Shown here in pieces: positions 30,513-62,339 of a stretch of DNA of 64,000 nucleotides. Below the pieces are notes generated by a model, which was given only the letters and a program-made list of their open reading frames with translations, had not been told where the DNA came from and did not search any database. A program made the translations under genes and the position numbers. The stretch's first letter is position 1; each line of letters starts with the position of its first letter. The DNA is taken from positions 2,108,001 to 2,172,000 of the forward strand of contig NZ_CP107254.1 in NCBI RefSeq assembly GCF_029229925.1. Reading direction: 5' to 3'. This DNA comes from Halorhabdus sp. BNX81. Its GTDB lineage: Archaea; Halobacteriota; Halobacteria; Halobacteriales; Haloarculaceae.

Positions 30513-32351
30513 TCAGTTCGGGACCCGATATTTCAGGTCGATGGCGTCGATGAGCCGGTCGTTCCGGCTGAGGTTGGTCTCCAGTTCGACGTGCAACGAG
30601 TCCAGCATCGTGTCGACCAGGTCCTGGCGCGCCGAGGACGAGGACCACTGCTCGGGGTTCGCGGGCGTCCCGATCTCCATGGCGACCTGCTGGTTCGGGT
30701 AGATCGTCCGCATGTGGTAGGGCTCGTCGTGATTTGCACACCGGACGGCGTAGGCCGACATGCCCTCGTAGTCGGGGTGGATGACTTCGATCACGTCGCG
30801 CTGGGGGTGGCCCAGCGACTGACTCGGGCGGTGGGGGTTGTTCCAGTGGCCGTCCGCGAGGTTCGCGGCGTCGCCCGACGGCCCGAGCCACGTGATGACC
30901 ATGCCGTCCTGGAAGTACGGCACCTCGCCCGTGTTCTTCAGGACGATGTACTGGTTCCAGTAGCCGCCGCCGTTCTCGTGGATCTCGACGGACGCTTCCA
31001 TCGGCGCGTTGGCGGTGAAGCCGTCGCCGCCAAGCGACTCGCCGGTCCGCGGGTCGACCTTGTCGGCCACCATCTCGTGGATGGGGTTGTCCGGGTTGTT
31101 GACGACGTCCTCTGGCAGGTCAGCCGAACTCCCCCACTCGCGGCTGTCGTCGTACTCCGGCTGGTCGTGGACGCGATCACGCACGCGGACCTCGTCAGGC
31201 TGGTACGTTCGGGCGTCCGTCGGCCAGCGGTCCTGGATGAACTGGTCAGGACCGTTCGTCGCTTGGGTCGGGCCGGCGGTCTCGTCCCAGACGTTGTCGG
31301 GGTCGTCGTGCGTGCCGGGATCTTCGGTCTCGTCCGGCAACAGCGCGAGCCGCGGGAGGAGTTTCACGGTCGCATGGGCGGGGAAGTCGTTGTCGGCGAG
31401 TTGCTGGACGTAGGGCAGCGCCTGCGTGCCGAGTTGATCGAGGGTCAGCGACCCGTCGCTGATGTTGTTCTGGACGGCCTCGACGTCGTAGTTGAACTCC
31501 TCGGCCTTCTCGGCGTCCGTCCACGCCTGGCCGGTCGAGGACGTCTCGCCGGGTAGGTAGTCCGTGAAGTCCCGTGGGACGTAGTACGGATCATCGAAGT
31601 GTTCGTAGAGTTCGGCGACCGTCGTGCTACCGGTGATGTCAGACGGCAGGGTATCAGGCTCCGGCGGCCGGTCCGGGAACGGGACATCCCAGGTCGGTTC
31701 CCCGTCATCATCGTCGGGTTCCGTCTCCGTCGGCGTGTCGTCTGGCGTCTCCGTCGGCGTGTCTTCGGGCGTTTCAGTCGGCGTGTCTTCGGGCGTCTCC
31801 GTCGGTGTCTCCGAACCGTCGTCGTCCGGGTCGGTCGTCACCGCGATCCGATCGATCTCGACGGCCCCTGAGGCCCCCTGCCAGAAGTTGAACCTGACTG
31901 CCTGTGGACTCGCCAGGTCAGCACCGACCGATTCGAGATCGATCGAGACGGTCGAGTAGTCGGTGCCGATCGAGTCATCCGTCAGGTTTTCCAGCAGATC
32001 CGAGGCGCCGCCGATCTTGAGCATGAAATCCGACTGCTCGCCGCCCTCGTCCCCGCGGATTCGAAGCGTGAGATACTGGTAGTCGTCGATCGACTGGGAG
32101 ACGTTGCTCCCGAACCAGCCGGCGTTGTCATACTCCAGACGGAGCGCGCCGTCCTCGACCTCGCCCGACCCGCTCCCGTTGGCGAAACTCCCCGCGTCCG
32201 CCCAGTTGCCGAGGTCGTTGGAGCCCGGATAGGTCCCCCCGTCGAACGAATGGACGACCAGCGGCGAATGTTCCTGGCCCAGGACTGACGTCGCCAGACC
32301 CAGGCTTCCGAGTGCGATGCTCCCTTTCAATACAGTCCTTCGTTTGACCAT
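30513..32351 (-). CDS. Secreted modular protein of unknown function in the hydrolase cluster
   Basis: A 612-residue protein. A Tat signal (KRRTVLKGSIALGSLGLA) is followed by a cysteine-free copy of the cluster's recurring beta-rich module (about residues 28-175: VVHSFDGG..., DLGNWADAGSFANG), a Thr/Pro/Glu linker of PTETPEDT repeats, and a ~375-residue C-terminal domain I cannot place. That domain has many aromatic residues and His (WNQYIVLKNTGEVPYFQDGM, HWNNPHRPSQSLGHPQRDVI, CANHDEPYHMRTIYP). It is the last gene of the cluster but has its own AT-rich promoter. By location it may be a new polysaccharide-acting or binding protein; nothing in the sequence proves an enzyme. Confidence 0.8.
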   Translation of the reverse strand: MVKRRTVLKGSIALGSLGLATSVLGQEHSPLVVHSFDGGTYPGSNDLGNWADAGSFANGSGSGEVEDGALRLEYDNAGWFGSNVSQSIDDYQYLTLRIRGDEGGEQSDFMLKIGGASDLLENLTDDSIGTDYSTVSIDLESVGADLASPQAVRFNFWQGASGAVEIDRIAVTTDPDDDGSETPTETPEDTPTETPEDTPTETPDDTPTETEPDDDDGEPTWDVPFPDRPPEPDTLPSDITGSTTVAELYEHFDDPYYVPRDFTDYLPGETSSTGQAWTDAEKAEEFNYDVEAVQNNISDGSLTLDQLGTQALPYVQQLADNDFPAHATVKLLPRLALLPDETEDPGTHDDPDNVWDETAGPTQATNGPDQFIQDRWPTDARTYQPDEVRVRDRVHDQPEYDDSREWGSSADLPEDVVNNPDNPIHEMVADKVDPRTGESLGGDGFTANAPMEASVEIHENGGGYWNQYIVLKNTGEVPYFQDGMVITWLGPSGDAANLADGHWNNPHRPSQSLGHPQRDVIEVIHPDYEGMSAYAVRCANHDEPYHMRTIYPNQQVAMEIGTPANPEQWSSSSARQDLVDTMLDSLHVELETNLSRNDRLIDAIDLKYRVPN

Positions 32352-32369
32352 ACCAGATGATAATAACCT

Positions 32370-32392
32370 TCTATTATTAAATAAACATCACG
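32370..32392 (-). promoter_or_regulatory. Promoter of the secreted unknown protein
   Basis: On the minus strand GATGTTTATTTAATAATAG lies 20-40 bp before the ATG at 32351. It is far more AT-rich than the other intergenic gaps in the cluster, so this gene is probably transcribed separately from the GH9 gene upstream. Confidence 0.5.
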
Positions 32393-32483
32393 AACGAGGA
32401 GAATTTCCACCATAAATTAATAGACTGGTCGAATCCGAGACACCGAAACCCTGGGTTTACGCTATAGAGCGGTCAAGACACGC

Positions 32484-35426
32484 CTACTCGAAGCGCACCG
32501 CCTCGATTTCGAGCGTGCTATTGCCTCCTTGCCAGAAGTTGAGCCGGACCGCAAGCCCCTCGGCGGTGGGGTCGATACCGGCCGACTCCATGTCGATCGC
32601 AACGTCGGTAACGCTCGTTCCGATCGAATCGTCAGTCAGGTCGGACAGATATCCGCGCGTGCCGCCGACATCGACGATGAACTCCTCGCCCTCGCCACCG
32701 TTGGCACCGCGTACGCGCAAGACAAGTGTCTCGTACTCCTCGACACGCCGGTTGATCTGCTCCTGATACCACCCGCCGTTGTCGTACTCAAGCACCAGGG
32801 CACCGTCTTCGACATCGCCGCTCCCGTTCTCGAAGGAGCCGGCCCCACACCACTGGCCGAGGTCGTTGCGATTGCTCGACCACGCCGGGTCGCCGTCGTA
32901 GTCGTTGACGACCAGCGCCTCAGCGGGTTGGTCCTCGTTCCCGCTGTCGTCTGCGTCGTCGGTCGTCACCTCGACGGACACGGTATCGGACTCGTTGCCG
33001 GCACCGTCGACCGCCGAGACGCCGATCTCGTAGGTCGTCTCGGCGGCGAGTTCTTCGACAGTCGCCCTTGTCGTCCCGGCCTCGACCTGCTGGTCGAAGT
33101 CGCTCGCAACGGAGACAGTGTAGTGATCGAGGCCGGACCCACCCTCGTCGGTGGCGGCGTCCCACTCGATCTCGGCCGAGGACGCGGTCGTCTCGACCAC
33201 CGAGAGGTTCGATGGGGCCGTCGGGGCGGTCGTATCGTCGGGCTCGGACTCGGACTCACCCGGAAGCTGGCCGTAAACCAGTTCGCCGTCGAGGTAGACG
33301 GGGATCGCCTCGGTGACGGTCGCCTCCTCGCCGATGTCCTGGAAGCTCGGATCGTTCGATGGATCCCAGTTGCTCTCCCAGTTGTCGTCCTGTTCGGCGA
33401 TCATCGAGATCTGAATCTCCCGTGCGCCATAGATCTGGTTGCCCGACCAGTCGAGTTCGATGTAGTAGATGCCGGCATCCTCGTCCCAGGCGATCGGCCC
33501 CGAGACGTCGGCCGACCCATCGCCCATGGTTGATTGCTGGTCGTACTGGACCTCGACCGAGACGGCGTCGATCGACTGGCCGGCGTCGCGCAACTCGCTG
33601 ACGTCGATGAAATAGCGGGCGCTGAGGCCGTCCTCACGATGGGGCGGGTGGATCGATTCGTTGTGGATCGTGACTCGAACCTGTGTCCGGTCGGCGTTCT
33701 CCTGGAGGACCTCCCCCTCGGCGTAGTAGGCGTCGATCGGCTCCTCACCCGGCGGGAACTCGGCGACTGGCTCGCCGGTATCGTCGTAGAAGGTGTTGAA
33801 CCCCGCGAGCGCACCGACCAGTCCCGCGTTGAAGTCGATCGCGACCTCGTTGTAGACGTAATCGGAGGTCTCGTCGACGTGGGTGTCGTCCTCGTCGGGC
33901 CCGCCGACCAGGGCACCCCACAGCGTGTGGCGATGCTCTTCGGGTTCCTCCATGCTGTTTGTCTTCGAACCGTGGGCCGCCCGGTGGTGGGGATGCTCGG
34001 CGTGATCGTCGGTGAACCCGACGATCAGCGAGTAGCCGAAGGGATTGTCACCCATGATGTAGTTCATCTGGGTCGCCGCCCAGTCGGTGAACGCGACCGC
34101 CTTCTCGGTGTCGCGGTACTTCCGGTAGACCATCGCCTGGAACTGCGCGGCGGCGTTGTACCGGGCCGACCCCCACGTGTTGAGCACGGTGAACCCAGCA
34201 TCCGACGTCGAGGCGTAGTTCGTGTCATTGGCGTCGTCATGCTCGACCGAACCGCCGGAGAGATACTCCAGGTTCCAGCGGGCGATCTGCCAGTGTTCGG
34301 GGTCGTCGGTGATCGGCGCGAGTTTGAGGAAGACGCCGCCCCAGACCGTGTCCCAGGAGTGGACCCAGATGTTCTGCCAGTCGTCGTCGGTCGAGTCGAT
34401 GATCTCGCCGAAATACCCAGTGTAGGTGCCCGAATCGTCGGTCGCGAGGATGTCATCCAGATACGCGTCGTCCTCAGTCGCGATGTGCAACCAGACCGCC
34501 GCCCAGGAGAGTTCGTCCTCGTCGTAACTCGAATCGTAGAAGCCGCCGTCATACCCCAGTCCGCGGTTCTCGACAGCGAAGTCATACAGCGCTTGTGCGG
34601 TGTCGAGACACTCCGCCGCGTACGCCGAATCCTCGGACTCCAGGACGAGCGAGGTAATCGTCAGCGCCGCGGCCGCCCCGGCGCACTGGTCGCTGGCCGG
34701 ATCCTCCGGCGTGGCGAAGTAGGCTGGCCGGGGGTACTCCTCGGACGACTGGAGTTCCGGCGGCCCCCAGTAGTTGTGGTCGATACTCCCCTCGCCGACG
34801 TGATAGCAGAAGGCGACGACGTTGCCTTCGTCATCCCGGAACGTCGACTTCAGGAAGTAATCGGCGAAGTGCCGCAGGATGTCGACCATGTGGTCGTAGA
34901 CCCCCACGTCCCGGAAGGCGTCCTCGAACTCGTAGAGCGCCCAGGAAAGCGTCGAGGCGCTGTAGGACTGGGGGAGCCCGAACTTCATGTGGTCGCCGGC
35001 GTCGTGGAACCCGCCGCTGACGTCGACCGTCCCGGTGCCGTCGGGGTCGAGTACGTCGCTGTACTCCTCGATGAAGCTCCCAGAGAGGTTGGTCCCGCCG
35101 TCTTCGGTCGCCGCATCGAGCGGAATCTCAGTGTCCGAAGGGTGGCACTCGCCGCGCCACTGGAGGCGATCGCCCATCGTCGTCGCACCACAGCGATTGG
35201 CGTCATAGAAGTACAGTGACTGCTGGAGCGCGTGGGCGTAGTCGAAGCCCAACTCAGTCTGTGCGGCTGCTCGGGAGACCACGCTCGGCGTGGCCACGTC
35301 CGTCCCGAGCGCGACCGATCCCGCGCCCAGTCCCATCGCCGCAAGCAGGTCCCGACGGAACAGATCGGTGTCCCGGTCAGTTTTCGTCCGCCCCATTCCC
35401 CGTGAGTTCGCGTCGTGTTCTGTCAT
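32484..35426 (-). CDS. Secreted GH9 endoglucanase with CBM3c-like, Fn3 and recurring C-terminal module
   Basis: A 980-residue Tat-exported protein (FRRDLLAAMGLGAG). GH9 catalytic domain, about residues 58-560: FDYAHALQQSLYFYDANRCG at the start, catalytic Asp pair in GGFHDAGDHMKFGLP (about 142-145), HHRAAHG (about 480-486) and the acid Glu in YNEVAIDFNAG (about 527). A CBM3c-like module (about 563-720) follows at once, as in processive GH9 endoglucanases, then one Fn3 (about 738-828) and the recurring module with DLGQWCGAGSF (about 837-980). It should cut beta-1,4-glucan inside the chain, outside the cell. Confidence 0.93.
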   Translation of the reverse strand: MTEHDANSRGMGRTKTDRDTDLFRRDLLAAMGLGAGSVALGTDVATPSVVSRAAAQTELGFDYAHALQQSLYFYDANRCGATTMGDRLQWRGECHPSDTEIPLDAATEDGGTNLSGSFIEEYSDVLDPDGTGTVDVSGGFHDAGDHMKFGLPQSYSASTLSWALYEFEDAFRDVGVYDHMVDILRHFADYFLKSTFRDDEGNVVAFCYHVGEGSIDHNYWGPPELQSSEEYPRPAYFATPEDPASDQCAGAAAALTITSLVLESEDSAYAAECLDTAQALYDFAVENRGLGYDGGFYDSSYDEDELSWAAVWLHIATEDDAYLDDILATDDSGTYTGYFGEIIDSTDDDWQNIWVHSWDTVWGGVFLKLAPITDDPEHWQIARWNLEYLSGGSVEHDDANDTNYASTSDAGFTVLNTWGSARYNAAAQFQAMVYRKYRDTEKAVAFTDWAATQMNYIMGDNPFGYSLIVGFTDDHAEHPHHRAAHGSKTNSMEEPEEHRHTLWGALVGGPDEDDTHVDETSDYVYNEVAIDFNAGLVGALAGFNTFYDDTGEPVAEFPPGEEPIDAYYAEGEVLQENADRTQVRVTIHNESIHPPHREDGLSARYFIDVSELRDAGQSIDAVSVEVQYDQQSTMGDGSADVSGPIAWDEDAGIYYIELDWSGNQIYGAREIQISMIAEQDDNWESNWDPSNDPSFQDIGEEATVTEAIPVYLDGELVYGQLPGESESEPDDTTAPTAPSNLSVVETTASSAEIEWDAATDEGGSGLDHYTVSVASDFDQQVEAGTTRATVEELAAETTYEIGVSAVDGAGNESDTVSVEVTTDDADDSGNEDQPAEALVVNDYDGDPAWSSNRNDLGQWCGAGSFENGSGDVEDGALVLEYDNGGWYQEQINRRVEEYETLVLRVRGANGGEGEEFIVDVGGTRGYLSDLTDDSIGTSVTDVAIDMESAGIDPTAEGLAVRLNFWQGGNSTLEIEAVRFE

Positions 35427-35447
35427 GGATATCGTGTCGTTGGTTGT

Positions 35448-35502
35448 GCCACCGGACCCTGGGCCGTCATCACCCCATCCCTAACGGGCCCGGTCCGGTG
35501 GC
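35448..35502. terminator. Intergenic stem-loop between GH5 and GH9 genes
   Basis: GCCACCGGACC (35,448-35,458) and GGTCCGGTGGC (35,492-35,502) form a perfect 11-bp stem in the 98-bp gap upstream of the GH9 gene. It could end or slow transcription, or be an RNA-processing site that sets the GH9 mRNA apart from the upstream genes. There is no T-run. Confidence 0.45.
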
Positions 35503-35524
35503 GTCTGATCGAACGGTTCGATGC

Positions 35525-38500
35525 CTATTCGAGTCGGATCTCTTCGATTTCGAGCGTGCTCGCACCTCCTTGCCAGAAGTTCAGGCGGATCGAGAGTCCC
35601 CCGCCCGACGGGTCGATCCCGGCCGCGTCCATGTCGATCGCGACGTCAGTGACACTCGTCGTGATCGAGTCGTCGGTCAGATTCGCGAGCAAGTCGCGCG
35701 CACCGCCCATGTCGAAGAGGAACTCGCTCTCCTCGCCGCCGTTCGCCCCGCTGACCCGCAACACGACCGTCGAGTAGTCGCTGACGTCTTGCTGGACCTG
35801 TTCGACGAACCACCCGGCATTGTCGTATTCGAGGACCAGCTCGCCGTCCTCGACCGCACCGCCTCCGGCAGTGCCATTCTGGAACGACCCGGCGCCGCAC
35901 CACTTGCCGAGGTCGTTGCGATTGCTCGACCACGACGGATCGCCGTCGTAATCGTTGACGACCAGGGCGTCTGCCGGTGATTCGTCGTCCTCATCGCCTT
36001 CGCCGTCGTCGGCCTCGTCGGTGGTAGCCTCGACGGTCGCCGTCGCCGACTCGTTGCCGGCCGTGTCGATCGCCGAAACCCCGACCTCGTAGGTCGTCGC
36101 GGCGGTGAGGCCGTCGATCGTCGCCGTCGTCGTCCCTGCCTCAACCGCCAGATCTCGGCTCCCGTCGACGTAGACGGCGTAGGCGTCGACACCCGTGCCG
36201 GCGTCCGAAGCCCCACTCCAGGCGAGGTCAATCGAGGACTCACTCGTGCCCTCGACCGAGAGGTCCCCGGGGACAGTCGGCGGGGTCGTGTCGTCGCCGG
36301 CGTCGGTCGTCACGTCGACAGTCACCGTCGCCGACTCGTTGCCGGCCGCGTCGACGGCCGAGACGCCGATCTCGTAGCTCGTCTTGGCCGCGAGATCGGC
36401 GATCGTCGCCGACGTGGTCCCGGCTGGGACCTGCTGATCGAGACTGCCGTCGACGGAAATTGCGTAATGGTCGAGTCCCGAGCCTCCGTCGTCGCTCGAA
36501 GCGCTCCACTCGATCTCGGCGGATGACGGCGTCGTCGTGGTCACTGAGAGGTTCGAGGGAGCAGTCGGCGGGGTCACGTCCTCGCCGCCGCCGTCGCCGC
36601 CCGTGAACTCGACCCAGTCGAAGTTCCAGCCGCTGGTCTCGACGACGATCCGGATGACGTGCTCGCCCTCGGGGAGGTCGACCTCGCCGACCCGGATCTC
36701 CTCGAAGTTCTCCCAGCCACCGGTCGGCCAGACGTTCTGGGTCGCCACCTCGGCGCGGTCGACCTCGATCCGGAGGTCGCCACCCGAATCAGCGCCGTTG
36801 GCAACCCGAACGGTGGCCTCGTAGCTACCACCGGATTCGACGGTGACGGTGTACTCCAGCCACTCGCCGGTCTCGGTGTACCCGACGTTGTACCCCGACT
36901 CGACGGCCGTCCCGATGTCGACGCCCGTCTCGCGGTAGTCGGCCCCGGCCTCGTTCGTGGATCCCGTATCGTAATAGGCGATTCCCTGGCCACCCTCGTC
37001 AAAGTCCTCGGCCTGGATGCGGCCCGGGAGTTCGTGCTCGACGAACGCCGACTGGCCGGCGTCGGTGGCGATCGTTTCGGCGACCGTCGTCGTCTGATTG
37101 GACTCGTTGCCCGCACTGTCGACGGCAGAAACACCGACCTCGTAGGTCGAAGCCGGTTCCAGGCCGTCGACCGTCGTCGCCGTCCCGTCGATCACCTGCC
37201 CGCGGCGCTCGCCGTCGACGTAGACGTTGTAATGGGAAAAGCCGGCCTCGCCCTCGTCGGTGACGGCGCTCCAGGCGATCTCGACGCTGATCTCGGTCGA
37301 ACGAGTTACCTCGAGCCCCGAGGGTGCCGGCGGTGCGACGTCGTCATCGATCGTACTCTCCGGGATGCCCTGGTCTTTGGTCGCCTCGAGCCAGGTCTTG
37401 ATGTACCCGCCCATCTGGTCGGGGTCGTCCTTGAGCGTCCAGGGCTCGTTCGCTCCCGAGTCCGGCGACTCGAAGAAGGCCGGCTCCCAGGAGTCGTCGA
37501 AACACCACGAGATCCACCCCATGTTCTCGTAACCCTCGACCCACTCGCGGAACGGCTCGCCCCACCCGGAGGTGGTGCCCTGATCGACGGATCCCCCGGT
37601 GGGTTCCCAGCCGAACTCCGTGACGACGACCGGGACGTCGTTTGCCGGTTCGCCGTACCACTGGTCGAAGTCCGCGGGCGGTCCGTTGTCGGGGTAGATG
37701 TGCGCCGCGTAGATCAGGTTCTCCCCATCGAAGGGATACTCCGGCGCCATGTGGGTCACCGACGTCCAGCGCGGCGAGCCGATGATGATCGGCGTCTCCG
37801 GGGCGTGCTCGCGGACGAGGTCGACCCACGGCTGGGCGGCGTCACGCCAGGCCTGAAAGGCACCGGCGTCGTCGCCGTACATCGCCGGCTGGGTCGGCTC
37901 GTTGAACAGCTCGTAGATGACGTGTTCGTCCTCGGCGAACTCCGGGGCGACCCGATCCCAGAAGGTCGTCATCACGTCGTCGATCGGTGCGAGGTCGTCG
38001 TCGTTCTCCTCGTTGTAGGTCTCAGTTGCTTCCTGCGTATAGGGTCTGATGAGGTGGAAGTCCACCAGCGCGTAGACGTCCCGGGCCGCCAGCAGGTCGA
38101 CCGCGGGGCGGAGTACCTCGGTGACGTACGTCTCCAGGCCCAGCGCGTCGATCGAGTCCTGCGTGCAGGGCAACCGGACGGTGTTTGGATGCCAGCCGCG
38201 CTCCGTGTCCGTCGCCCACTCCAGGACTTCCTCGAAGCTCTTGGGGTGGTACTGCCGGTAGAAACCGGGGTCAGCGGGTGCCATCCCCCGGAGCGTCACG
38301 TCGTTGCCCGCCGGGTCGCGGATCCACCGCCCCTCGGTGTGCAGGCGTGGTGTCGGAACCCCGGCGGCTCCGGTCCCAGTGGCGGCCGAAAGCCCGGCAC
38401 CGATCGTCCCAGCACTCGCCATCGCCCCGAGGAACGTCCGGCGTGACGGCGTGAGGCCGGGGTCCTCTCGGGCCGCCTCGTCAGTGTGATCAGTCGCCGA

Positions 38501-38533
38501 TGCGTCAGTCGATTCGGTCAGTTCGTTCGTCAT
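35525..38533 (-). CDS. Secreted GH5 glycoside hydrolase with CBM6-like, three Fn3 and recurring C-terminal module
   Basis: A 1002-residue protein with a Tat signal (SRRTFLGAMASAGTIG). GH5 domain, about residues 60-400: acid/base Glu in YELFNEPTQP (about 212) and nucleophile Glu in VVVTEFGWE (about 306). Then Fn3 (about 410-500), a CBM6/35-like module (about 508-645; RIQAEDFDEGGQGIAYYD, GEWLEYTVTV, WNFDWVEF), two more Fn3 (about 655-840) and the recurring module (DLGKWCGAGSF, about 857-1002). It is probably a beta-1,4-glucanase; GH5 subfamily and true substrate are not settled by sequence. Confidence 0.9.
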   Translation of the reverse strand: MTNELTESTDASATDHTDEAAREDPGLTPSRRTFLGAMASAGTIGAGLSAATGTGAAGVPTPRLHTEGRWIRDPAGNDVTLRGMAPADPGFYRQYHPKSFEEVLEWATDTERGWHPNTVRLPCTQDSIDALGLETYVTEVLRPAVDLLAARDVYALVDFHLIRPYTQEATETYNEENDDDLAPIDDVMTTFWDRVAPEFAEDEHVIYELFNEPTQPAMYGDDAGAFQAWRDAAQPWVDLVREHAPETPIIIGSPRWTSVTHMAPEYPFDGENLIYAAHIYPDNGPPADFDQWYGEPANDVPVVVTEFGWEPTGGSVDQGTTSGWGEPFREWVEGYENMGWISWCFDDSWEPAFFESPDSGANEPWTLKDDPDQMGGYIKTWLEATKDQGIPESTIDDDVAPPAPSGLEVTRSTEISVEIAWSAVTDEGEAGFSHYNVYVDGERRGQVIDGTATTVDGLEPASTYEVGVSAVDSAGNESNQTTTVAETIATDAGQSAFVEHELPGRIQAEDFDEGGQGIAYYDTGSTNEAGADYRETGVDIGTAVESGYNVGYTETGEWLEYTVTVESGGSYEATVRVANGADSGGDLRIEVDRAEVATQNVWPTGGWENFEEIRVGEVDLPEGEHVIRIVVETSGWNFDWVEFTGGDGGGEDVTPPTAPSNLSVTTTTPSSAEIEWSASSDDGGSGLDHYAISVDGSLDQQVPAGTTSATIADLAAKTSYEIGVSAVDAAGNESATVTVDVTTDAGDDTTPPTVPGDLSVEGTSESSIDLAWSGASDAGTGVDAYAVYVDGSRDLAVEAGTTTATIDGLTAATTYEVGVSAIDTAGNESATATVEATTDEADDGEGDEDDESPADALVVNDYDGDPSWSSNRNDLGKWCGAGSFQNGTAGGGAVEDGELVLEYDNAGWFVEQVQQDVSDYSTVVLRVSGANGGEESEFLFDMGGARDLLANLTDDSITTSVTDVAIDMDAAGIDPSGGGLSIRLNFWQGGASTLEIEEIRLE

Positions 38534-38681
38534 CTGTCGTCATGTGTTCGCGATCGTTCATCCCCCGATACAGTCGAAACAGCGACGCGCCCCCGGCCGG
38601 GACGCCGGCGACAGTCCGGGCCGGCGGCCGCCCGCCGCCCCCGCGTGCAATCGCTCTCCGTGAGTTACGTCCCATGCCTGT
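38534..38681. other. GC-rich gap between two GH5 genes
   Basis: 148 bp with no TATA-like element on the minus strand. It is rich in self-complementary GC blocks (around 38,595-38,645, GGCCGGGACGCCGGC and CCGGGCCGGCGG), so the RNA would fold tightly. Confidence 0.35.
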
Positions 38682-41600
38682 TCACTCGAATCGTATCGCC
38701 TCGATCCGGAGCGTTCCGCTCCCGGCGCCGCCCTCCCAGAAGTTCAGGCGGAGTTCGCCCGGCGACGTGGCGTCGATGCCCGCCGATTCCAGATCGATAG
38801 AGATCGGTTCCGGCGTGGTCCCGATCGAGCCGTCGGCAACGGTACTGAACGTCGCTCGATCACCGCCGAGCGAGACAACGAAGTGATCGCCTTCGCCGCC
38901 GCTTTCCCCGCTGAGGACGACCACCAGCTCCGCGTAGTCCGAGACGTCCTGCTGGACCTGCTCGACGAACCACCCGGCGTTGTCGTACTCGAGGACCAGC
39001 GCGCCGTCCTCGACGTCGCCGCCGCCGTTCTCGAAGGAGCCGGCGCCACACCAGTTCCCGAGGTCGTTCCGGTTGTCCGCCCACGCCGGATCGCCGTCGT
39101 AGTCGTTGACGACCAGGGCATTTTCTGGCGGTTCTTCCCCGCCGTCGTCGCTCTCGGCGGTCGTCACCTCGATGACGGCCGGGTCGGACTCGTTGCCGGC
39201 ACCGTCGATCGCCGAGACGCCGACCTCGTAGGTCGTCCCGGCGTCCAGTTCCTCGACGGTCGTACTCGTCGTGCCGGCCTCGACGGAGTGGACCGTTTCG
39301 CCGTCGACGGCAACGACGTACTGCTCGACCCCAGACCCGCCCGAATCCGTCGAGGCGTCCCACGAGAGCGAGACCGAGGAGCTCGTGGTTTCGGTCGCCG
39401 TCAGGTCGGCGGGCGCCGTCGGTGCCTCGTCGTCGCCGTCCCCGGTCGTCGCCGTCACCGTCACGGTCCCGGATTCGTTGCCCGCGCTATCGACGGCCGA
39501 GACACCGATCTCGTACTCGGTAGCGGGATCGAGTCCGTCGACCGTCGCGGTCGTCGTGCCAGCGGGGACCTGCTGGTCGAGCGCGCCGTCGACGGAGACA
39601 TCGTAGTGGGCAAGGCCCGACCCACCGTCGTCAGTGGCGGCGTCCCACGAGAGCGAAATCGAGGAATCCGTCGTCCCGGTCACTGCCAGATCGCCGGGCG
39701 CCGTCGGCGGCGTCGTGTCCTCGTCGCCATCACCGTCGTCCGTGGTGCCGTCGCCGGCGGTCGTCGCGCCGGCCACCGAAACGGGGCCGACGTCGGACGC
39801 CGTCCAGTCCTCTAGCCAATCGACTTCGTCGAAGCGGGCGGCGGCGAGTTCGCCCGCGCTGTTGGCGCTGACGAACAGCCCGACGTGGACGTCCTCGGGG
39901 AGATCGACGTCGCCGGACCCGATCTCCGTCCAGTCCGAGCCGTCCGGCGAGACTGACGCCGACACCGACGACCCCGACCGCTTGACGCGCAACCAGATCG
40001 GCGGCGTGCGATCGTCGCCGGCACGCTCGCGCCACACCGTCGAGTCGTAAGCCCGCGTCAGTTCGCTCCCCTCGCCGGGCGTGATCGTGGCGGCACCGAG
40101 CGCGCCGGGCGCGGCCGGATCGTCGGCCACCAGCACACCGGCCTGGGTCTGGGGATCGACTGGTTCGAGATCCGCGACGCGGGCCGTGACCGCCACGTCG
40201 CCCGAGGCGGGCATCGACGCGAAGTGACACTGCTTGGTGTCGCGGTGGAACGTCTCGCCCGCGCCCTCGACGAGAAACGAGTCTTCCGGGATGCCTTCGA
40301 CGGAAACTGACTCGGTATCGGCGTCAGTCGCGCCGCTATCGTCGGTGACAGTCAGTTCAGCCTCGTGGGAGCCGGCTTCAGCGAAACGGTGGGCCACCCG
40401 CTCGCCGGTGGCCGTCGCGCCGTCATCGAAGTCCCAGTCGTAGGCGGCGATCGAGCCGTCCGGGTCGAAGGAGTAGGTGCCGCTGAAATCGCCGGACTCG
40501 CCGATTCGGAGCGAAGAGGGTGCCGTCGCGTCGGCCGTCGGCGTGCCGTCGGTACTCCCGGACTTTTCGCGGATCGTCGATGCGTACCCCGAGAGGATGT
40601 CACCGGACTCGCTCCGGTAGACCTGGAAGCCGTCGTGGTCCTCGGTGTCCTCGAGCACCAGTTGCCAGATCGCCGCTGCGCCCGCGTCCTGGCTGTCGAG
40701 GGCGTCGTACCACGCCCGCAACCGATCGTTTCGCGTCGCCAGGTCGTGTTCCTGGACGTTGACGTTGAACTCCCCCAGCAACGCGGGCTTTTCGAGCGTC
40801 TCGCGGGCGTCGGCGGCGTGTTCGCGGATCCACTCGACGGCACTGACGACGTCGTCCTCGGCGAGTTGGCCCGCCAGCCCCATGCCGGGCCAGTGGTACG
40901 GATAGAGGTGGAACGAACACACGTCGATCGTGTCGATCTCGTGATGGGCGATGAAGTTCTGGCCGGTCCAGTCACCGTACATCCAGTTTGGCCCGTCCGG
41001 GCGTGTGTAGAAGCCCTCCAACCCGGTCGTCACCAGGTGGTTGTCGTCGAGATCCTTGATGAACCCGGACATGTCGGCGAACCACTCGGTGAGGGCGGCC
41101 TCCCGGTCGTCGATGGTTTCCGTGTCGTCGTCCTCCAGTCGGGGTTCGTTGGCGAGTTCCCACATCGCGATCGCGGGGTCATTGCGGTACTCGACGCCGG
41201 TGATCGAATTCTTTCGCGTGAGAAGCGTCTCGACGTGGGTGCGATACAGTTCACGACACGCCTCGTTGACGTAGAAGTCGCCGTGCTCGCTCGCGCCGTC
41301 CGCCCACTCGACGTACTGGGCGATGCCGCCGTAGTCGTCCCAGTTATTGACCAGCGAGAGGATGAGTCGCACCCCGTGTTCGCCGGCTTTCGCGACGAGA
41401 TAGTCGAGGTGCTGCAGCGCTGCCTCGTTGAACACCCCCGGTTCGGGCTGGAGACACTGGCCGCCCTCGCCCGCACAGAACGCCCAGGTCCGCAGCAAAT
41501 TCTGATCCAGGTCCGCACACAGCGCGAGGACGTCGTCGATCCGCGAGCGATCGCTGTAGGGATCGGTCACCCAGAAGTTGTTCGTCCCGCTGAAGTAGAC

Positions 41601-41843
41601 GGGGTCGCCGCCGACGGTGAACTCCGGGCCGTCGGTGTCGACGAACTCGCGGTCCCCGGGTGCTGCCTGAACGCTCGCCGTCCCGATCGAGCCCAGCAGC
41701 GCCCCCGCACCGATGGTGCGGAGGACGTCCCGTCGCGACGCCGCGAGTGCCGACCGTCGGTCGTCCGGACGATACGTCCGTCCGTCGGGACGGTCTGCAC
41801 CGCCGCCGGCGTCAGTATGGTTGTCTCGTGCCATCGGAATCAC
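38682..41843 (-). CDS. Secreted GH5 mannanase-like enzyme with PKD, ConA-like, two Fn3 and recurring C-terminal module
   Basis: A 1053-residue protein from GTG 41843 (GTGA overlap with the upstream gene's stop; ATG 41834 is the alternative). It has a Tat signal (SRRDVLRTIGAGALLG). The GH5 domain (about 65-435) looks like the GH5_7 beta-mannanase group: FSGTNNFWVTDPYSDRS, LRTWAFCAGEG, acid/base Glu in MWELANEPRL (about 233) and nucleophile Glu in ALLGEFNVN (about 358). PKD (about 442-525), a ConA/DUF1349-like domain (about 525-695; PIWLRVKRSG), two Fn3 and the recurring module (DLGNWCGAGSF) follow. The probable substrate is mannan. Confidence 0.88.
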   Translation of the reverse strand: MIPMARDNHTDAGGGADRPDGRTYRPDDRRSALAASRRDVLRTIGAGALLGSIGTASVQAAPGDREFVDTDGPEFTVGGDPVYFSGTNNFWVTDPYSDRSRIDDVLALCADLDQNLLRTWAFCAGEGGQCLQPEPGVFNEAALQHLDYLVAKAGEHGVRLILSLVNNWDDYGGIAQYVEWADGASEHGDFYVNEACRELYRTHVETLLTRKNSITGVEYRNDPAIAMWELANEPRLEDDDTETIDDREAALTEWFADMSGFIKDLDDNHLVTTGLEGFYTRPDGPNWMYGDWTGQNFIAHHEIDTIDVCSFHLYPYHWPGMGLAGQLAEDDVVSAVEWIREHAADARETLEKPALLGEFNVNVQEHDLATRNDRLRAWYDALDSQDAGAAAIWQLVLEDTEDHDGFQVYRSESGDILSGYASTIREKSGSTDGTPTADATAPSSLRIGESGDFSGTYSFDPDGSIAAYDWDFDDGATATGERVAHRFAEAGSHEAELTVTDDSGATDADTESVSVEGIPEDSFLVEGAGETFHRDTKQCHFASMPASGDVAVTARVADLEPVDPQTQAGVLVADDPAAPGALGAATITPGEGSELTRAYDSTVWRERAGDDRTPPIWLRVKRSGSSVSASVSPDGSDWTEIGSGDVDLPEDVHVGLFVSANSAGELAAARFDEVDWLEDWTASDVGPVSVAGATTAGDGTTDDGDGDEDTTPPTAPGDLAVTGTTDSSISLSWDAATDDGGSGLAHYDVSVDGALDQQVPAGTTTATVDGLDPATEYEIGVSAVDSAGNESGTVTVTATTGDGDDEAPTAPADLTATETTSSSVSLSWDASTDSGGSGVEQYVVAVDGETVHSVEAGTTSTTVEELDAGTTYEVGVSAIDGAGNESDPAVIEVTTAESDDGGEEPPENALVVNDYDGDPAWADNRNDLGNWCGAGSFENGGGDVEDGALVLEYDNAGWFVEQVQQDVSDYAELVVVLSGESGGEGDHFVVSLGGDRATFSTVADGSIGTTPEPISIDLESAGIDATSPGELRLNFWEGGAGSGTLRIEAIRFE

Positions 41844-45511: not shown

Positions 45512-45517
45512 GGGTTG

Positions 45518-47476: not shown

Positions 47477-47597
47477 TGTGTATCCTGTGTCGTTGTTCTC
47501 GCGATGGGGAGTAGACCGTCAGGTCCAGGTTTAGCAGGCACCGTCGAACGAGCCGACGGCACCTAGCCCTCGATCTGACCGGAATCGAGCGACCGGC

Positions 47598-49388: not shown

Positions 49389-49551
49389 TTGTCGTCTTTG
49401 CCTCAGTTTGTTTCAGTCGTCCCCATCGAACTCGTCTCAGTTCACCCCCACATCGTCGCAGTCGTCTCCCCGACAGCGGGAGGCCGGCCGTGATCGGTCC
49501 CTATGAGTGTGCCCGGCCCAGTCCGGTCGCCGGCGGTTCGGCTTTGGCTGA

Positions 49552-52020: not shown

Positions 52021-52059
52021 CGTGAGTTGGTATTTCGCCGCGTTTCGAGGGCGAATCCG

Positions 52060-54336
52060 CTACTGGAAGCGGATCTCCTCGATTTCGAGCGTGCCACTGC
52101 CGCCCTGCCAGAAGTTCAGTCGAACCGAGAGCCCCCCGGTCGACGGGTCGATACCTGCCGATTCCATGTCGACGGTGACGGTCGAGGCCGACGTTCCGAT
52201 GGCGTCGTCGGTGAACGCAGAGAGGAGCCCCCGAGCGCCACCCACGTCCAGCAGGAACTCGTCCGCTTGGACGTCGTCACCGGCCAGGACCAACACCAGT
52301 TCCGAGTACTCCGAGACGTCCTGCTGGATCTGCTCGACGAACCAGCCGGCGTTGTCGTATTCGAGGACCAGCGCCCCGTCCTCGACCGCGCCGCCACCGT
52401 TCTCGAACGAGCCGGCCCCGCACCACTGGCCGAGATCGTTGCGATTGGACGCCCACGCCGGATCGCCGTCGTAATCGTTGACGACGAGTGCCTCGACAGG
52501 CGTCTCGCCGTCGTCTTCGCCGTCGTCGATGCCGTCGCCATCCTCGTCTCCATCACCGTCGTCGGTACCATCATCACTGTCCGCGGTCGTCGCCGATACC
52601 GTCGCGGCGTCGGACTCGTTGCCCGCACTGTCGACCGCCGAGACGCCGATCTCGTAGGTCGCCGCCGCGTCGAGCCCCTCGACCGTCGCGGTCGTCATGC
52701 CGGCACCGATCGTCTGGTCCTGCGAGCCGCCCACGGAGACGACGTACTGGTCCAGCCCGGCGGTCCCGTTGTCCGTCACGCCGTCCCAGGAGACGGTGAC
52801 CGTCGAGTCGGTCGTCGTCGACACCGAGAGATTCGTCGGCACCGACGGCGGCTGGGTGTCGTCCGCGGCGCTGCCGTCACCCGCGACGGTGACCGTGACC
52901 GTCGTCGTGCCCGAGGCGTCCGTGACTTCGACTGACTCGGTCGTCTCTGCGCTATCGGTACTGACGGTGACTTCGTGGTCACCCAGGAATGCCGTCGTGG
53001 CGTAGGTTCCACTGGCGTCGGTCGTGCCGGAGTCGTCGGTCCACCACTCGTCGTAGACCAGGCCGGTCCAGACGTCGTAGGCGGGTTTCTGGGACCAGTC
53101 CTCGTAGAACAGCGGCGCTTCGTCTTCCCAGTGGTCGCCGTCCCAGAAGCCCCACATGATGAACGCGTCGACGCCAGGATGGCTGAACGCACCCCGGAGG
53201 TAGTTCTCCGTCACGTCGGCGCGTTCCTCATCTGAGTTCCAGTCGTCGCCGTTGTACGTGTCGAATTCAGTGATCTTCACGCGTGCGCCATGGTCGGCCC
53301 ACGTGTTGATCTCCGAGACGACCTGGTCGGCGTCGATCCGGCCGTCCGGATCGTCGTTGGAATTGAACTCGCCCTCTCGGGCGGCAATGTGTGCCTGGAG
53401 ACCGACCGTGTCCAACTGTGCCCCGTTGGCGTTGATGTGGTCGATCTCCGACTCGTAGCGGTTGTCCGTGTAGGCGTAGGGGAACTGGTTGAAGTCGTTG
53501 ACCGCGATCCCGACGTCGAGGTCGTGCTCCGCGATCACCGACGCGGCCGTCTCGTACCACGCCGCCAGGAGTGGAGAGGTCCACGGGACAACCTCGCCGT
53601 TCCAGGGCTCCTCGGTGTCGATCTGATCGCCGTAGACACCGAGCTGCAGCTGGTAGGCGTGCATCGCCTCGTTGACGACATCCCAGTCGGTGATGTCGTC
53701 ACCGTAGTGGGTGATGATCTCCTCGATGTGGGCCATCGAACGCTCGCGGATCGTCTCGGCGTCGCGTTCCTCGATCGCCGTCAAGATATCGTCCGGGATC
53801 GCCGCGACGTCCTCCCGGCCCCAGAGACAGACGTGCCCGCGCATGTCCAGTCCCTGATCGAGCAGCCAGTTGGTCGCCTCGTCGGCGACCTGCCGGTTGT
53901 TCTCCCAGAACCGCCACTTGTGGTGGTTACCGAGCACCGCCGTGTTGAACAGCTCCGGGACGTACTCGCGGTAGTTGTCGCCGGGGTCGCTCTCGTTGAC
54001 GAGCCTGTCGGCGTTGACGGCGGTGCCGAAGCTGAACGCGTGTTCCTGCTGGGCGATCGAGACCTCGGCGTCCGAGACCGTCGAGCCGTCGGGGTTCTCG
54101 ACGACCACTTCCAGATCGCCGGTCCGGTGTTCTTCGATCCGTTCGTCGATACTCAAGGAAGTGTCAGCCGTCTCGGCGGCTGCGCCACCCGTTGTGGCAG
54201 CGCCGAGTCCGGCCGCCGCGGCCGCTGCCGCGACGGTCTGAAGATAGTCTCGCCGGTCCATCGAGCCGACAGAATCGTCGGCCTCGACGGGGCCGGCCGT
54301 CGATGTGTCGATGTCGTCGTTCGTGTCTGGTGTCAT
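52060..54336 (-). CDS. Secreted GH10 xylanase with Fn3 and recurring C-terminal module
   Basis: A 758-residue tandem paralogue of the GH10 at 49552-52020: same Tat signal, same N-terminal beta domain, GH10 with acid/base Glu in WDVVNEAMHAY (about 223) and nucleophile Glu in VKITEFDTYNG (about 357), and the same GTYATTAFLGDHEV extension. Here the C-terminus is one Fn3 and the recurring module (DLGQWCGAGSF) instead of PKD domains. The two genes are 39 bp apart, so a local duplication followed by a swap of C-terminal modules is likely. Confidence 0.94.
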   Translation of the reverse strand: MTPDTNDDIDTSTAGPVEADDSVGSMDRRDYLQTVAAAAAAAGLGAATTGGAAAETADTSLSIDERIEEHRTGDLEVVVENPDGSTVSDAEVSIAQQEHAFSFGTAVNADRLVNESDPGDNYREYVPELFNTAVLGNHHKWRFWENNRQVADEATNWLLDQGLDMRGHVCLWGREDVAAIPDDILTAIEERDAETIRERSMAHIEEIITHYGDDITDWDVVNEAMHAYQLQLGVYGDQIDTEEPWNGEVVPWTSPLLAAWYETAASVIAEHDLDVGIAVNDFNQFPYAYTDNRYESEIDHINANGAQLDTVGLQAHIAAREGEFNSNDDPDGRIDADQVVSEINTWADHGARVKITEFDTYNGDDWNSDEERADVTENYLRGAFSHPGVDAFIMWGFWDGDHWEDEAPLFYEDWSQKPAYDVWTGLVYDEWWTDDSGTTDASGTYATTAFLGDHEVTVSTDSAETTESVEVTDASGTTTVTVTVAGDGSAADDTQPPSVPTNLSVSTTTDSTVTVSWDGVTDNGTAGLDQYVVSVGGSQDQTIGAGMTTATVEGLDAAATYEIGVSAVDSAGNESDAATVSATTADSDDGTDDGDGDEDGDGIDDGEDDGETPVEALVVNDYDGDPAWASNRNDLGQWCGAGSFENGGGAVEDGALVLEYDNAGWFVEQIQQDVSEYSELVLVLAGDDVQADEFLLDVGGARGLLSAFTDDAIGTSASTVTVDMESAGIDPSTGGLSVRLNFWQGGSGTLEIEEIRFQ

Positions 54337-54375
54337 CTGTATGAGTCAGTTGTGTGTTGGAGCCCGAAACGCAGT

Positions 54376-56007: not shown

Positions 56008-56095
56008 GTATCGCGTCGTATCATATTGCCGTATTTCCTGCCCCCCATCGTCCCCAGTGGGACGCCAACGGCAGGCGAATCGAGCGGTTGCGTCC

Positions 56096-57568
56096 CTATT
56101 CGAACCGGATTTCGTCGATTTCGAGCGTACTGTCACCCCCCTGCCAGAAGTTCAGGCGGACCGAGAGCCCGCCGGCCGACGGGTCGATCCCTGCTTCGTC
56201 CATGTCGACGGTGACCGTCGACGCCGAGGTCCCGATGGTGTCGTCAGTGAACGCCGAGAGGAGCCCACGAACGCCGCCGACATCCAACAGGAACTCGTCC
56301 GCTTCGCCGCCGTTGGCTCCGCTGAGGACGAAGACGAGGTCCGAATACCCCGAAACGTCCTGATTGATCTGTTCCTGGAACCAGCCGGCGTTGTCGTATT
56401 CGAGGACCAGGGTCCCGTCTTCGACCTCGCCGCTCCCGTTCTCGAAGGAACCGGCCCCACACCACTGGCCGAGATCGTTCTGATTCGACGACCACGCCGG
56501 ATCGCCGTCGTAATCGTTCACGACGAGGGCGTCGCCCGACGGCGTGTCGGTCTCCGTGGGCGTCTCCGTCTCGGTTTCGGTGGGCGTCTCGGTCTCTGTC
56601 GGCGTCTCGGTTTCCGTCGGCGTCTCGGTCGGAGTTGGCGTCGGCGTGTCCGTCCCGCTGCCACTGGCGTAGGTCGTCCCGTTGATCGTGACGTCGAAGG
56701 TGTTGTAGGTTGTTTCGCCGGAACTGCCCTCCCAGTACTCGTTGCCGAGTTCGACACCCGAGAGCCAGAGACTCTCGTCGACGCCGTGTTCCGCGGTCAG
56801 ATAGTCGACGATCTCGGTCAGGTCGATCCGGCCGCCGTCGTGACCGCCCTGGATTCGGAAGATGTAGAACGTCGCGTCGGTCCCGCCGCCGGCGTAGGTC
56901 GTCCAATGATCGACGGTGTTGCCGAATCGGTCGGTCCAGACGTTCTCGGCCTCGACCGCGCCGTGACTGTGCTGGTCGTTCCAGTCCAAGAGGAGCATGA
57001 TCTCGTACTGGTGGGTCCCGGTCTCCTGGCTCGGTGGCTGGTCCATCAGCCACCACTCCTCGGCCCAGTCCCACTCGCCGCCGGACTCGGAGTACTCGGC
57101 CTCGACGTCGATGACGAGTTCGTCAACGTCCCGACGCCGGATCGGGAACTCCGCCACCCCGGTGTCAGTCCCCCAGGGTTTCGTCCCACAGATCACCTCG
57201 GGATAGTTGATCCCACTGCCACCCGCGGCGTCGAAGTCATAGCCGTAACTGCCGTCGTCGTTGAGCCAGACACACTGATCGGCGTTTGAGTTCCCCCACT
57301 GGTTGTCCACCAGGGTGAACCCGTCGGCGACGTCGATCGACCCGTAGTCGTCGGAGTTACAGACCTCCTCGACCGTCGCCGCCGAAGCCTGGTCGCTCGC
57401 AGTCAGCGCGAGCCCACCCAACCCGACGCCCGCGCTCGCCAGGAGGAATCGCCGGCGGGTCTGGGTCGCGACGGACGGACGATCGCCGGACCGTTTCGCG
57501 GTGTCGGTGGTCGTGTCACTGGTAGTCGATTCTCCCGTCGATTCGTCCGTGTCGGTGTCGTGTGTCAT
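56096..57568 (-). CDS. Secreted GH12 endoglucanase with recurring C-terminal module
   Basis: A 490-residue protein from ATG 57568. Tat signal TRRRFLLASAGVGLGG. The catalytic domain (about 68-290) is a GH12 beta-jelly roll: FTLVDNQWGNSNADQCVWL at the start, WDWAEEWWLMDQ, nucleophile Glu in YEIMLLLDW (about 189) and acid/base Glu in GVELGNEYWEG (about 277). A Thr/Pro/Glu repeat linker (PTPTETPTETETP) leads straight to the recurring module (DLGQWCGAGSF) with no Fn3. It should act on beta-1,4-glucan or xyloglucan. Confidence 0.92.
   Translation of the reverse strand: MTHDTDTDESTGESTTSDTTTDTAKRSGDRPSVATQTRRRFLLASAGVGLGGLALTASDQASAATVEEVCNSDDYGSIDVADGFTLVDNQWGNSNADQCVWLNDDGSYGYDFDAAGGSGINYPEVICGTKPWGTDTGVAEFPIRRRDVDELVIDVEAEYSESGGEWDWAEEWWLMDQPPSQETGTHQYEIMLLLDWNDQHSHGAVEAENVWTDRFGNTVDHWTTYAGGGTDATFYIFRIQGGHDGGRIDLTEIVDYLTAEHGVDESLWLSGVELGNEYWEGSSGETTYNTFDVTINGTTYASGSGTDTPTPTPTETPTETETPTETETPTETETETPTETDTPSGDALVVNDYDGDPAWSSNQNDLGQWCGAGSFENGSGEVEDGTLVLEYDNAGWFQEQINQDVSGYSDLVFVLSGANGGEADEFLLDVGGVRGLLSAFTDDTIGTSASTVTVDMDEAGIDPSAGGLSVRLNFWQGGDSTLEIDEIRFE
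56451..56533. repeat. 83-bp identical block in recurring module (copy in GH12 gene)
   Basis: CCGGCCCCACACCACTGG through GACGAGGGCGTC is, by eye, identical to 60,583-60,665 in the first GH5 gene. Both encode the start of the recurring module including the conserved Cys. Recent gene conversion or module shuffling is the simplest reading. Confidence 0.8.
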
Positions 57569-57863
57569 GGCTGTGGATCGTGGGCTGTCCAGAACGGTCC
57601 CCAAACTGGGCCGGGCGTCTGTTACCCCCGTAACACGGCCGGCCGCAGGGTCGTTCTGACAGCCAGTGGTGGTTCGGAACGGCTCTCTGGAGCGCGTGGG
57701 GCTGTCTCTCGTTGGTCGCTGGATGGGTGATACGTCGATGCGTACGTGACTTCAGTCGGATTTCGTGTCGTGTCGATGGGTGCCGAACCCGAGGTCGGCG
57801 GGCCGGTCGGACGTGCGATCGTCGCCGGCCGCCGACGCTACGGAATCAGTCCTGACCGACGGC
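57569..57863. other. Gap between GH5 and GH12 genes
   Basis: 295 bp with no gene I can support. A small inverted repeat GTTAC...GTAAC (about 57,621-57,633) is the only structure noted, and no clear TATA box lies close to the GH12 ATG, so GH12 may depend on read-through from the genes upstream. Confidence 0.4.
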
Positions 57864-60173: not shown

Positions 60174-60227
60174 CGTTGTGTCCGTGAGTCGTTGTGTTGT
60201 GAGTCGCTGTGATCGAAACGGAGCGGT

Positions 60228-62339
60228 TTATTCGAGCCGTATCTCCTCGATTTCGAGCGTGCTAGACCCACCCTGCCAGAAGTTCAGCCGGACTGAGAGT
60301 CCCCCAGCCGACGGGTCGATACCTGCGGATTCGAAGCCGACCGTGACGTTCGAGGCCGACGTCGAAATCGAATCGTCAGTCAGATTCGCGAGCAAATCAC
60401 GCGTCCCGCCCATATCGAGAAGGAAGTCGTCTTCCTCGCCACCGGTCGTACCGCTGACACGAATGACAAGCGACGAATAGTCCGAAATGTCCTGCTGAAT
60501 CTGCTCGACGAACCAGCCGGCGTTATCGTATTCGAGGACCAGCGCGCCATCGTCGACCTCGCCACTCCCGTTCTCGAAGGAGCCGGCCCCACACCACTGG
60601 CCGAGATCGTTCTGATTCGACGACCACGCCGGATCGCCGTCGTAATCGTTCACGACGAGGGCGTCTGCCGGCGTCGTTTCGTCGTCATCGTCTTCACCGG
60701 TACCGTCGTCGTCGGATTCGCTCGTCGTCGCCGCGACGGTCGTCGCGGCGGACTCGTTGCCCGCTCCGTCGACCGCAGAGACGCCGATCTGATACGATGT
60801 TCCGGCGGAGAGCCCGTCGACCGTCGCCGACGTGGTTCCTGCCGGGACAGTCTGGTCCTCGCTGCCATCGACGGAGACGACGTAGCTGTCGAGGCCGGAA
60901 CCGCCCGAATCCGTCGAGGCGCTCCAGCTCACGTCGACCGAGGTTTCGGTCGTCGACTCGACCGAGAGTGACGTGGGCGCCGTGGGCGGAGTGGTGTCCT
61001 CGTCGTCGCCGTTACCGTCGCCACCGCCGGTCCCCTCGCCGGGGATCCCGTCGTTGCGGTACTGTTCGAGGGCCGCCTTGATGTCGTCGCCCATGGCCCC
61101 GCTGCCGGTCGTGAGTTCCCACTCACAGGGCAACTCCGAACAGGCCTCGGGAACAGTCCCGTTGTAGGGGTCGCCGATCGAGTCGTCGGCGTTCTCGGCG
61201 AACGGCCGGCTGAACATCACCGGTCGCCAGACAGGGTCAGCACACCAGGCCGTCCAGTGGATGGCCTCGCTCTTCTCCAAGAAGTCGAGGAACGCGGTCC
61301 CGAAGTCGTCGGTCCCGCCGATGTACTGCCCGGCATTTTCCTCCCAGCCGAACTCGGTGACGAACAGCGGCGCTTGCTCGTAGACGCCGGCAACGCCTTC
61401 GCCGTTGTTCGAGGCGTCCTCCCAGTTCTGGCTTTGACTGGAGTTGTGACCCGGATAGATGTGGAAAGTGTAGGCGATGTCCTCGCCGTCGAACTCCTCG
61501 ACGAGTGCGCCTTCCGGACTCTGTGACCAGCTGGGCGAGCCCATCAGGATCAGGTTGTCCGCGTGACTGCGGATCGTGTCGACCCACGGCTGAGCCATCT
61601 CGAGCCAGAGCTGCCAGATGTCGGCGACCCACTGGGTGGTCGTGGGGTCCTCCCACATGCCCGGCTCGGTGGGCTCGTTGTACACCTCATAGAGGACGTG
61701 TGATTGGTCGGCGTACCGCGGTGCGACCGTGTCCCAGAACATGTCGACCTCGTCCTGGAGCTCGGTGTTGACGGGGCCGTCCTGGCCCTCCGCCCACTGG
61801 ACGTCCCGGTGGCGGTGGTAATCGATAATACAGTAGACGCCACGGTCGGCACAGCGCTGAACGACCTCGTCGAGGTGATTGCTGAGATACGATTCGAGCT
61901 CGCTCTCGTTGAACGCTGGGACAGGCGGCCCCGACCCGGGTTCGTACTCGCCGATGTCGACCGGCTGGACCGGGACGCGGATCATCCGCGGATACCAGCC
62001 GTTTGACTCGTCGGTGAGCATGTCGATGACCTGCGTCGCCGTCATCCCGCGCGCTTGGGCGGTCTCGTTGATCCGCTTGGGATCGGCGATATTGACGCCC
62101 CGGAGGGTGACAGTGTTGCCGTCGGGATCTTTGATCAGATTCCCGTCACGGTGGAGCGGTGGCGTCGGAATCGCCGCGGATGCCCCCCCAAGCGCACCCG
62201 TCCCGACGCCGAACGCGAGCGCGCCAGTCAGCACGCTGCTCTTGAGGAACGCCCGCCGTGACTGCCCGTCGCCGCTCGTCACACGGTTGGTTAGCGATGC
62301 CACTCTGTCTCCCGTCGGTGGTCTGTCTGGATCTGTCAT
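60228..62339 (-). CDS. Secreted GH5 endoglucanase with Fn3 and recurring C-terminal module (first gene of the cluster)
   Basis: A 703-residue protein with a Tat signal (SRRAFLKSSVLTGALA). GH5 domain (about 57-430): acid/base Glu in LYEVYNEPTEPG (about 222), nucleophile Glu in LFVTEFGWEENAG (about 329), FHIYPGHNSSQSQNW. It is clearly the sister of the GH5 in the 1223-residue protein. One Fn3 and the recurring module (DLGQWCGAGSF) follow. It is the first gene after the TrmB-type regulator and has the clearest promoter of the cluster. Confidence 0.92.
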   Translation of the reverse strand: MTDPDRPPTGDRVASLTNRVTSGDGQSRRAFLKSSVLTGALAFGVGTGALGGASAAIPTPPLHRDGNLIKDPDGNTVTLRGVNIADPKRINETAQARGMTATQVIDMLTDESNGWYPRMIRVPVQPVDIGEYEPGSGPPVPAFNESELESYLSNHLDEVVQRCADRGVYCIIDYHRHRDVQWAEGQDGPVNTELQDEVDMFWDTVAPRYADQSHVLYEVYNEPTEPGMWEDPTTTQWVADIWQLWLEMAQPWVDTIRSHADNLILMGSPSWSQSPEGALVEEFDGEDIAYTFHIYPGHNSSQSQNWEDASNNGEGVAGVYEQAPLFVTEFGWEENAGQYIGGTDDFGTAFLDFLEKSEAIHWTAWCADPVWRPVMFSRPFAENADDSIGDPYNGTVPEACSELPCEWELTTGSGAMGDDIKAALEQYRNDGIPGEGTGGGDGNGDDEDTTPPTAPTSLSVESTTETSVDVSWSASTDSGGSGLDSYVVSVDGSEDQTVPAGTTSATVDGLSAGTSYQIGVSAVDGAGNESAATTVAATTSESDDDGTGEDDDDETTPADALVVNDYDGDPAWSSNQNDLGQWCGAGSFENGSGEVDDGALVLEYDNAGWFVEQIQQDISDYSSLVIRVSGTTGGEEDDFLLDMGGTRDLLANLTDDSISTSASNVTVGFESAGIDPSAGGLSVRLNFWQGGSSTLEIEEIRLE
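60583..60665. repeat. 83-bp identical block in recurring module (copy in first GH5 gene)
   Basis: Partner of 56,451-56,533. Other pairs of modules in the cluster are also close in DNA but carry more differences. Confidence 0.8.

Follow-up and report, generated by a model that had tools for sequence, protein, structure and literature searches.

A recurrent beta-sandwich module of secreted Halorhabdus enzymes: a probable carbohydrate-binding family of haloarchaea

In the haloarchaeon Halorhabdus sp. BNX81, a cluster of 13 proteins secreted by the twin-arginine (Tat) route, mostly polysaccharide-degrading, is encoded on the minus strand (positions 30513-62339) of a 64,000-nucleotide stretch of DNA (the window: NZ_CP107254.1, 2,108,001-2,172,000; all positions below are those of the window), and nine of these proteins carry a recurrent module of about 144 residues. 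This module is most probably a carbohydrate-binding module (CBM) of a new family, built as a beta-sandwich of the CBM8/CBM30/CBM11 kind, that would hold the secreted enzymes on plant-wall beta-1,4-glucan, with cellulose as the likeliest ligand and mixed-linkage glucan or glucomannan possibly serving as further ones. A carbohydrate-binding role is well supported by the predicted fold of the module, by its exchange with other domains in related proteins, and by its co-occurrence with cellulases. One targeting part in common would concentrate enzymes of glycoside hydrolase (GH) families 5, 9, 10 and 12, as well as a conserved partner domain, on the same substrate surface.

The cluster was delineated through translation of all reading frames, Pfam assignment of the partner domains, and the Tat motif, which stands at the start of all nine module proteins. 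Translation and comparison place exactly ten copies of the module in these nine proteins, all on the minus strand; they measure 143-147 residues, share 40-83% pairwise identity with 25 invariant columns, a likeness that, from the alignment, is far beyond chance, and are the only copies returned when the entire 2.83 Mb genome is searched with a profile (E 2e-59 to 2e-73). Eight copies are C-terminal. Five of these belong to GH5 proteins: 60231-60662 in protein 60228-62339 (for which a predicted model was also used), 45521-45955 in 45518-47476, 41843-42277 in 41840-45511, 38685-39119 in 38682-41843, which also has PKD and FN3 domains, and 35528-35968 in the GH5-FN3-CBM6-FN3-FN3 protein 35525-38533. 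The remaining three end the GH12 protein 56096-57604 (56099-56530), the GH10 protein 52060-54336 (52063-52491) and the GH9-CBM3-FN3 protein 32484-35426 (32487-32918). The GH5 protein 41840-45511 holds a second, internal copy (43172-43600), the most divergent of the ten, and the last copy (31830-32270) lies at the N-terminal end of protein 30513-32351, with a Thr/Pro-rich linker after it; this host has no Pfam match. The sequence-only reading, which had described ten copies in nine secreted proteins attached to GH5, GH9, GH10, GH12 and an unknown domain, is thereby borne out. Nine copies adjoin GH5, GH9, GH10 or GH12 domains, in keeping with the general description of a CBM as a discrete, non-catalytic domain of carbohydrate-active enzymes.

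A set of 79 homologous sequences was used for Pfam scanning, fold modelling and the analysis of conservation. The AlphaFold2 model derived from it is an eleven-strand beta-sandwich with a predicted local distance difference test score (pLDDT) of 96.8, and its best matches among solved folds are mainly CBMs, at an identity of 12-16%. VIA re-alignment gave Z scores of 13.9 for CBM8 (7t7y; 129 residues, root-mean-square deviation 2.3), 12.9 for CBM30, 11.4 for CBM11, 11.1 for CBM4 and 10.6 for CBM29, while the top Foldseek match was CBM30 (E 6e-5). The modelled fold is of the CBM type, as the earlier suggestion of a galactose-binding-like sandwich had correctly anticipated at this level, and a fold by itself does not prove function. 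CBM8 of Dictyostelium discoideum CelA, the closest fold, is like the module also in being C-terminal on a GH9 enzyme, but is only 13% identical to it; CBM30 of C. thermocellum Cel9D-Cel44B (2c24) is likewise attached to a GH9 enzyme and shares 16-17% identity with the module.

Conservation within the homologue set points to W23/W50 as a candidate stacking site, close to which W129/Q130 would lie. Each of the 79 homologues has W, Y or F at position 23 (weighted share of W 0.87), and position 50 is aromatic in all of them (W 0.83). In a colinear but non-significant hhalign alignment, these two positions fall on chain residues Tyr22 and Tyr53 of CBM11 from C. thermocellum Lic26A-Cel5E (1v0a; sequence confirmed against the PDB), which we take to be ligand-binding residues; CBM11 resembles the module in fold, but has about 170 residues against 144. 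The binding residues of DdCBM8 are W572, W574, Y600 and Q686, which match the site of CBM29 (PMC9079177). The retained aromatics, the CBM11 alignment and the site residues of CBM8 together suggest that Trp23 and Trp50, possibly with Trp129/Gln130, would stack on a glucan chain in the manner of the Trp/Tyr/Gln set of CBM8 and CBM29.

Clear copies of the module occur in 19 of the 391 genomes of the class, among them those of Halosimplex and Halocatena, and only in haloarchaea; one further genome (G178) has a partial match, and the search outside the class returned only two weak partial matches (one in G664, E 2e-4). A strong GH9 match is present in 13 of the 19 module genomes and in one of the other 372; conversely, of the 14 genomes in which GH9 is strongly matched 13 have the module, as do six of the 377 others. 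Related loci supply some 100 further copies, mostly beside GH5, GH10 or GH12. All ten window copies have counterparts, at 78-99% identity, in genome G050, presumably that of Halorhabdus utahensis, and for nine of them the nearest counterpart is the one carried by the same enzyme. The association with catalytic domains is accompanied by exchange with other accessory domains: in related proteins the module is replaced by PKD in enzymes and by the chitin-type CBM5/12 in relatives of the partner domain. Within the window, four neighbouring cluster proteins (47598, 49552, 54376, 57864) lack the module and have a C-terminal PKD instead, and the counterparts of two of them (47598 and 57864) in Halosimplex and its relatives end in the module. 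It is of note that protein 47598-49388 (minus strand) has two PKD domains and, at residues 60-345, a stretch that appears GH5/mannanase-like by eye, with no Pfam family match.

Several observations weigh against the interpretation of the module as a cellulose-directed CBM. The beta-sandwich is a common fold, and a complex I assembly factor, which is not a CBM, also matches the model (Z 11.3). The inferred exposure of W23 and W50 rests on conservation and a non-significant alignment; hhalign probabilities were only 0.6% for CBM11 and 1.2% for CBM29-2, conservation is lower at position 129 (W 0.65), and glycine would replace the second binding-site Trp of CBM8 in the module, if the inferred register is right. 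A strong GH9 match is missing from six of the 19 module genomes, and the association between module and strong GH9, although it persists at the genus level (8/10 versus 1/76, p 7e-9), is corrected for kinship by genus collapse only. Furthermore, Halorhabdus utahensis grew on xylan and not on cellulose (PMC2707008), so that xylan or another beta-glucan could be the ligand.

The module appears to be new as a sequence family. Comparison of the ten copies with Pfam and NCBIfam, and of the 79 homologues with Pfam, yielded only weak matches, leaning towards CBM60, CBM11 and CBM30. CBM60 was matched by five homologues (best E 0.0017) and by none of the window copies; CBM_11 by seven (best E 0.0082, far below its 27-bit cut-off), CBM30 by three (best E 0.12, also short of a 27-bit cut-off), and CBM_6 by two (best E 0.11; cut-off 28.9 bits). 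A profile search of PDB sequences with the module brought up no CBM, the CBM8 entry included, even at E values as high as 10; no model of CBM8 appeared in the libraries scanned. Searches of the window genome with the Pfam CBM30 and CBM11 models gave no match, but gave none in 14 control genomes either, and are hence uninformative. Judged by Pfam, NCBIfam and PDB sequence models, the family is new, as the sequence-only reading had proposed when it recognized no established CBM family, while its structural kind is already known.

It could be argued that the module belongs, as a divergent member, to an existing family (CBM6, CBM11, CBM30, CBM8 or CBM60), since such families are faintly matched among the homologues and CBM8 is its closest fold. 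A CBM6 label has probably been applied previously: three module-bearing proteins of genome G344 have 1755, 835 and 578 residues (counted from a methionine near the start), lengths equal to those of MCU4972_2718, 2729 and 2732, which are listed as GH5/CBM6, GH5/CBM6 and CBM3, respectively, in Table 1 of a 2024 report (PMC10963439). From these lengths and the gene order, that report probably labelled module-bearing proteins, those of 1755 and 835 residues, as CBM6. The module resembles CBM6 in its beta-sandwich class and in its attachment to GH5; nevertheless, a true CBM6 taken from the same loci fails to align with it (hhalign 0.8%), and CBM6 membership was rejected on this basis and on the scarcity of CBM_6 matches. 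Given that all family matches are weak and confined to few homologues, and that the PDB profile search brought back no CBM, inclusion in an existing family is considered unlikely.

Two further explanations dispense with sugar binding on the substrate. A structural spacer comparable to FN3 or PKD, stabilizing or spacing the enzymes, would be consistent with the adoption of the PKD position by the module in relatives and with its proximity to FN3 repeats; however, a spacer would not be expected to keep its aromatic positions in every homologue, to be associated with cellulase-rich genomes, or to persist on scaffoldin-like proteins and on short Tat-module-dockerin proteins lacking any enzyme that it could space, and this explanation seems improbable. 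Even less credit can be given to the module as an anchoring or assembly part with the cell surface (S-layer glycan) or another protein as its target. Its presence on unrelated enzymes and the dockerin-like tails of some relatives would fit such a function, but the aromatics are conserved, the module is swapped with CBM5/12, and in relatives separate dockerin-like and cohesin-like domains are the likely assembly parts. In addition, a scan of the nine window proteins revealed no lipobox, PGF-CTERM or C-terminal membrane segment, and the cell-surface reading was rejected for them. The shared role in binding plant wall or cell surface that had been proposed from the sequence survives in its first half, as carbohydrate binding, and not in its second.

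The favored interpretation, a CBM that targets enzymes to glucan, acquires a wider context from relatives in which the module is found on scaffoldin-like proteins. These are MOD-COHx3-doc in G002 (L086:6576-8885, plus strand) and MOD-COHx5-doc in G264 (L070:2105-5224, minus strand), where MOD, COH and doc denote the module, cohesin-like repeats and a dockerin-like end, and GH5-COHx8-MOD in G344 (L074:3-5378, plus strand); a dockerin-like tail is present in two of the three. The arrangement recalls the scaffoldin CipA of bacterial cellulosomes, where a single CBM3a accompanies tandem cohesins, but CBM3a is of another CBM class, and the haloarchaeal repeats are only weakly cohesin by sequence and occur in relatives, not in the window. 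The repeat profile found as its best PDB match the cohesin of the ScaC scaffoldin (E 0.0081, weak), with CBM2 next, and Pfam Cohesin was matched in one of 20 repeats (E 3.9e-5). Dockerin_1 matches numbered 64 in G002, 13 in G264 and 17 in G344, and the window genome has five dockerin matches and no Pfam cohesin. In several genomes, short Tat-module-dockerin proteins adjoin the gene of the partner domain. Such module-bearing cohesin-repeat proteins may be scaffolds for enzyme assembly, through a putative dockerin-cohesin pairing; a literature search that covered few subscription papers found no paper on haloarchaeal scaffoldins. The G002 genome (2.72 Mb; L083-L086, L125, L126) also encodes two clear Pfam cohesins.

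The partner of the N-terminal module in protein 30513-32351 is a conserved domain of unknown family (30516-31736, minus strand) with no Pfam or NCBIfam match. It is present, nearly always as a single copy, in 39 of the 391 class genomes, including all 19 module genomes; of these 19, 15 have it joined to the module, three (Halocatena) have it on its own, and one has it joined to CBM5/12. In relatives elsewhere, CBM5/12 and PKD precede it in all seven proteins scanned with Pfam, with the same motif visible in most others, and a plastocyanin-like stretch occurs in three relatives, one of which matches Pfam Copper-bind at 5.7e-5 and another below threshold. Three histidines (H310, H336, H382) are invariant among 40 sequences. 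These histidines, along with the CBM5/12, PKD and plastocyanin-like partners, suggest that the domain may be a new enzyme acting on insoluble polysaccharide. Its fold model, from 20 sequences, is only fair (pLDDT 78.8), and a fold search gave no clear match, the best being a chitinase domain (Z 6.7), followed by CBM3-like sandwiches. Classical lytic polysaccharide monooxygenases (LPMO_10) were detected in seven of the 391 genomes, none module-bearing, a distribution that only leaves room for an LPMO-like reading of the domain. A broader picture can be offered tentatively, and is more doubtful than the binding role itself: the module could be the targeting part of a haloarchaeal cellulose system, cellulosome-like in some relatives (three to eight cohesin-like repeats, many dockerin enzymes), and the partner domain could define a new enzyme family that acts on polysaccharides, perhaps by metal-dependent oxidation, and that is combined with the module in degraders of cellulose and with CBM5/12 in degraders of chitin.

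Upstream of the cluster, on the same strand, lies the gene of a TrmB-family sugar-sensing regulator (62753-63826; Pfam Regulator_TrmB 1.1e-39), the likely regulator of the adjoining cellulase genes. Elsewhere in the window (14693-17071, plus strand), a pentapeptide-repeat protein with a C-terminal ion-channel domain (Ion_trans_2) is encoded.

The module would represent a CBM family, apparently filed under CBM6 until now, that is present in almost every haloarchaeal genome sampled in which GH9 cellulase is strongly matched and that presumably works at high salt. It could serve as a marker for cellulolytic haloarchaea and as a salt-tolerant binding part for work on biomass. Beyond the module itself, the data provide leads towards archaeal cellulosome-like complexes and towards a possible new polysaccharide-active enzyme in the form of the conserved partner domain.

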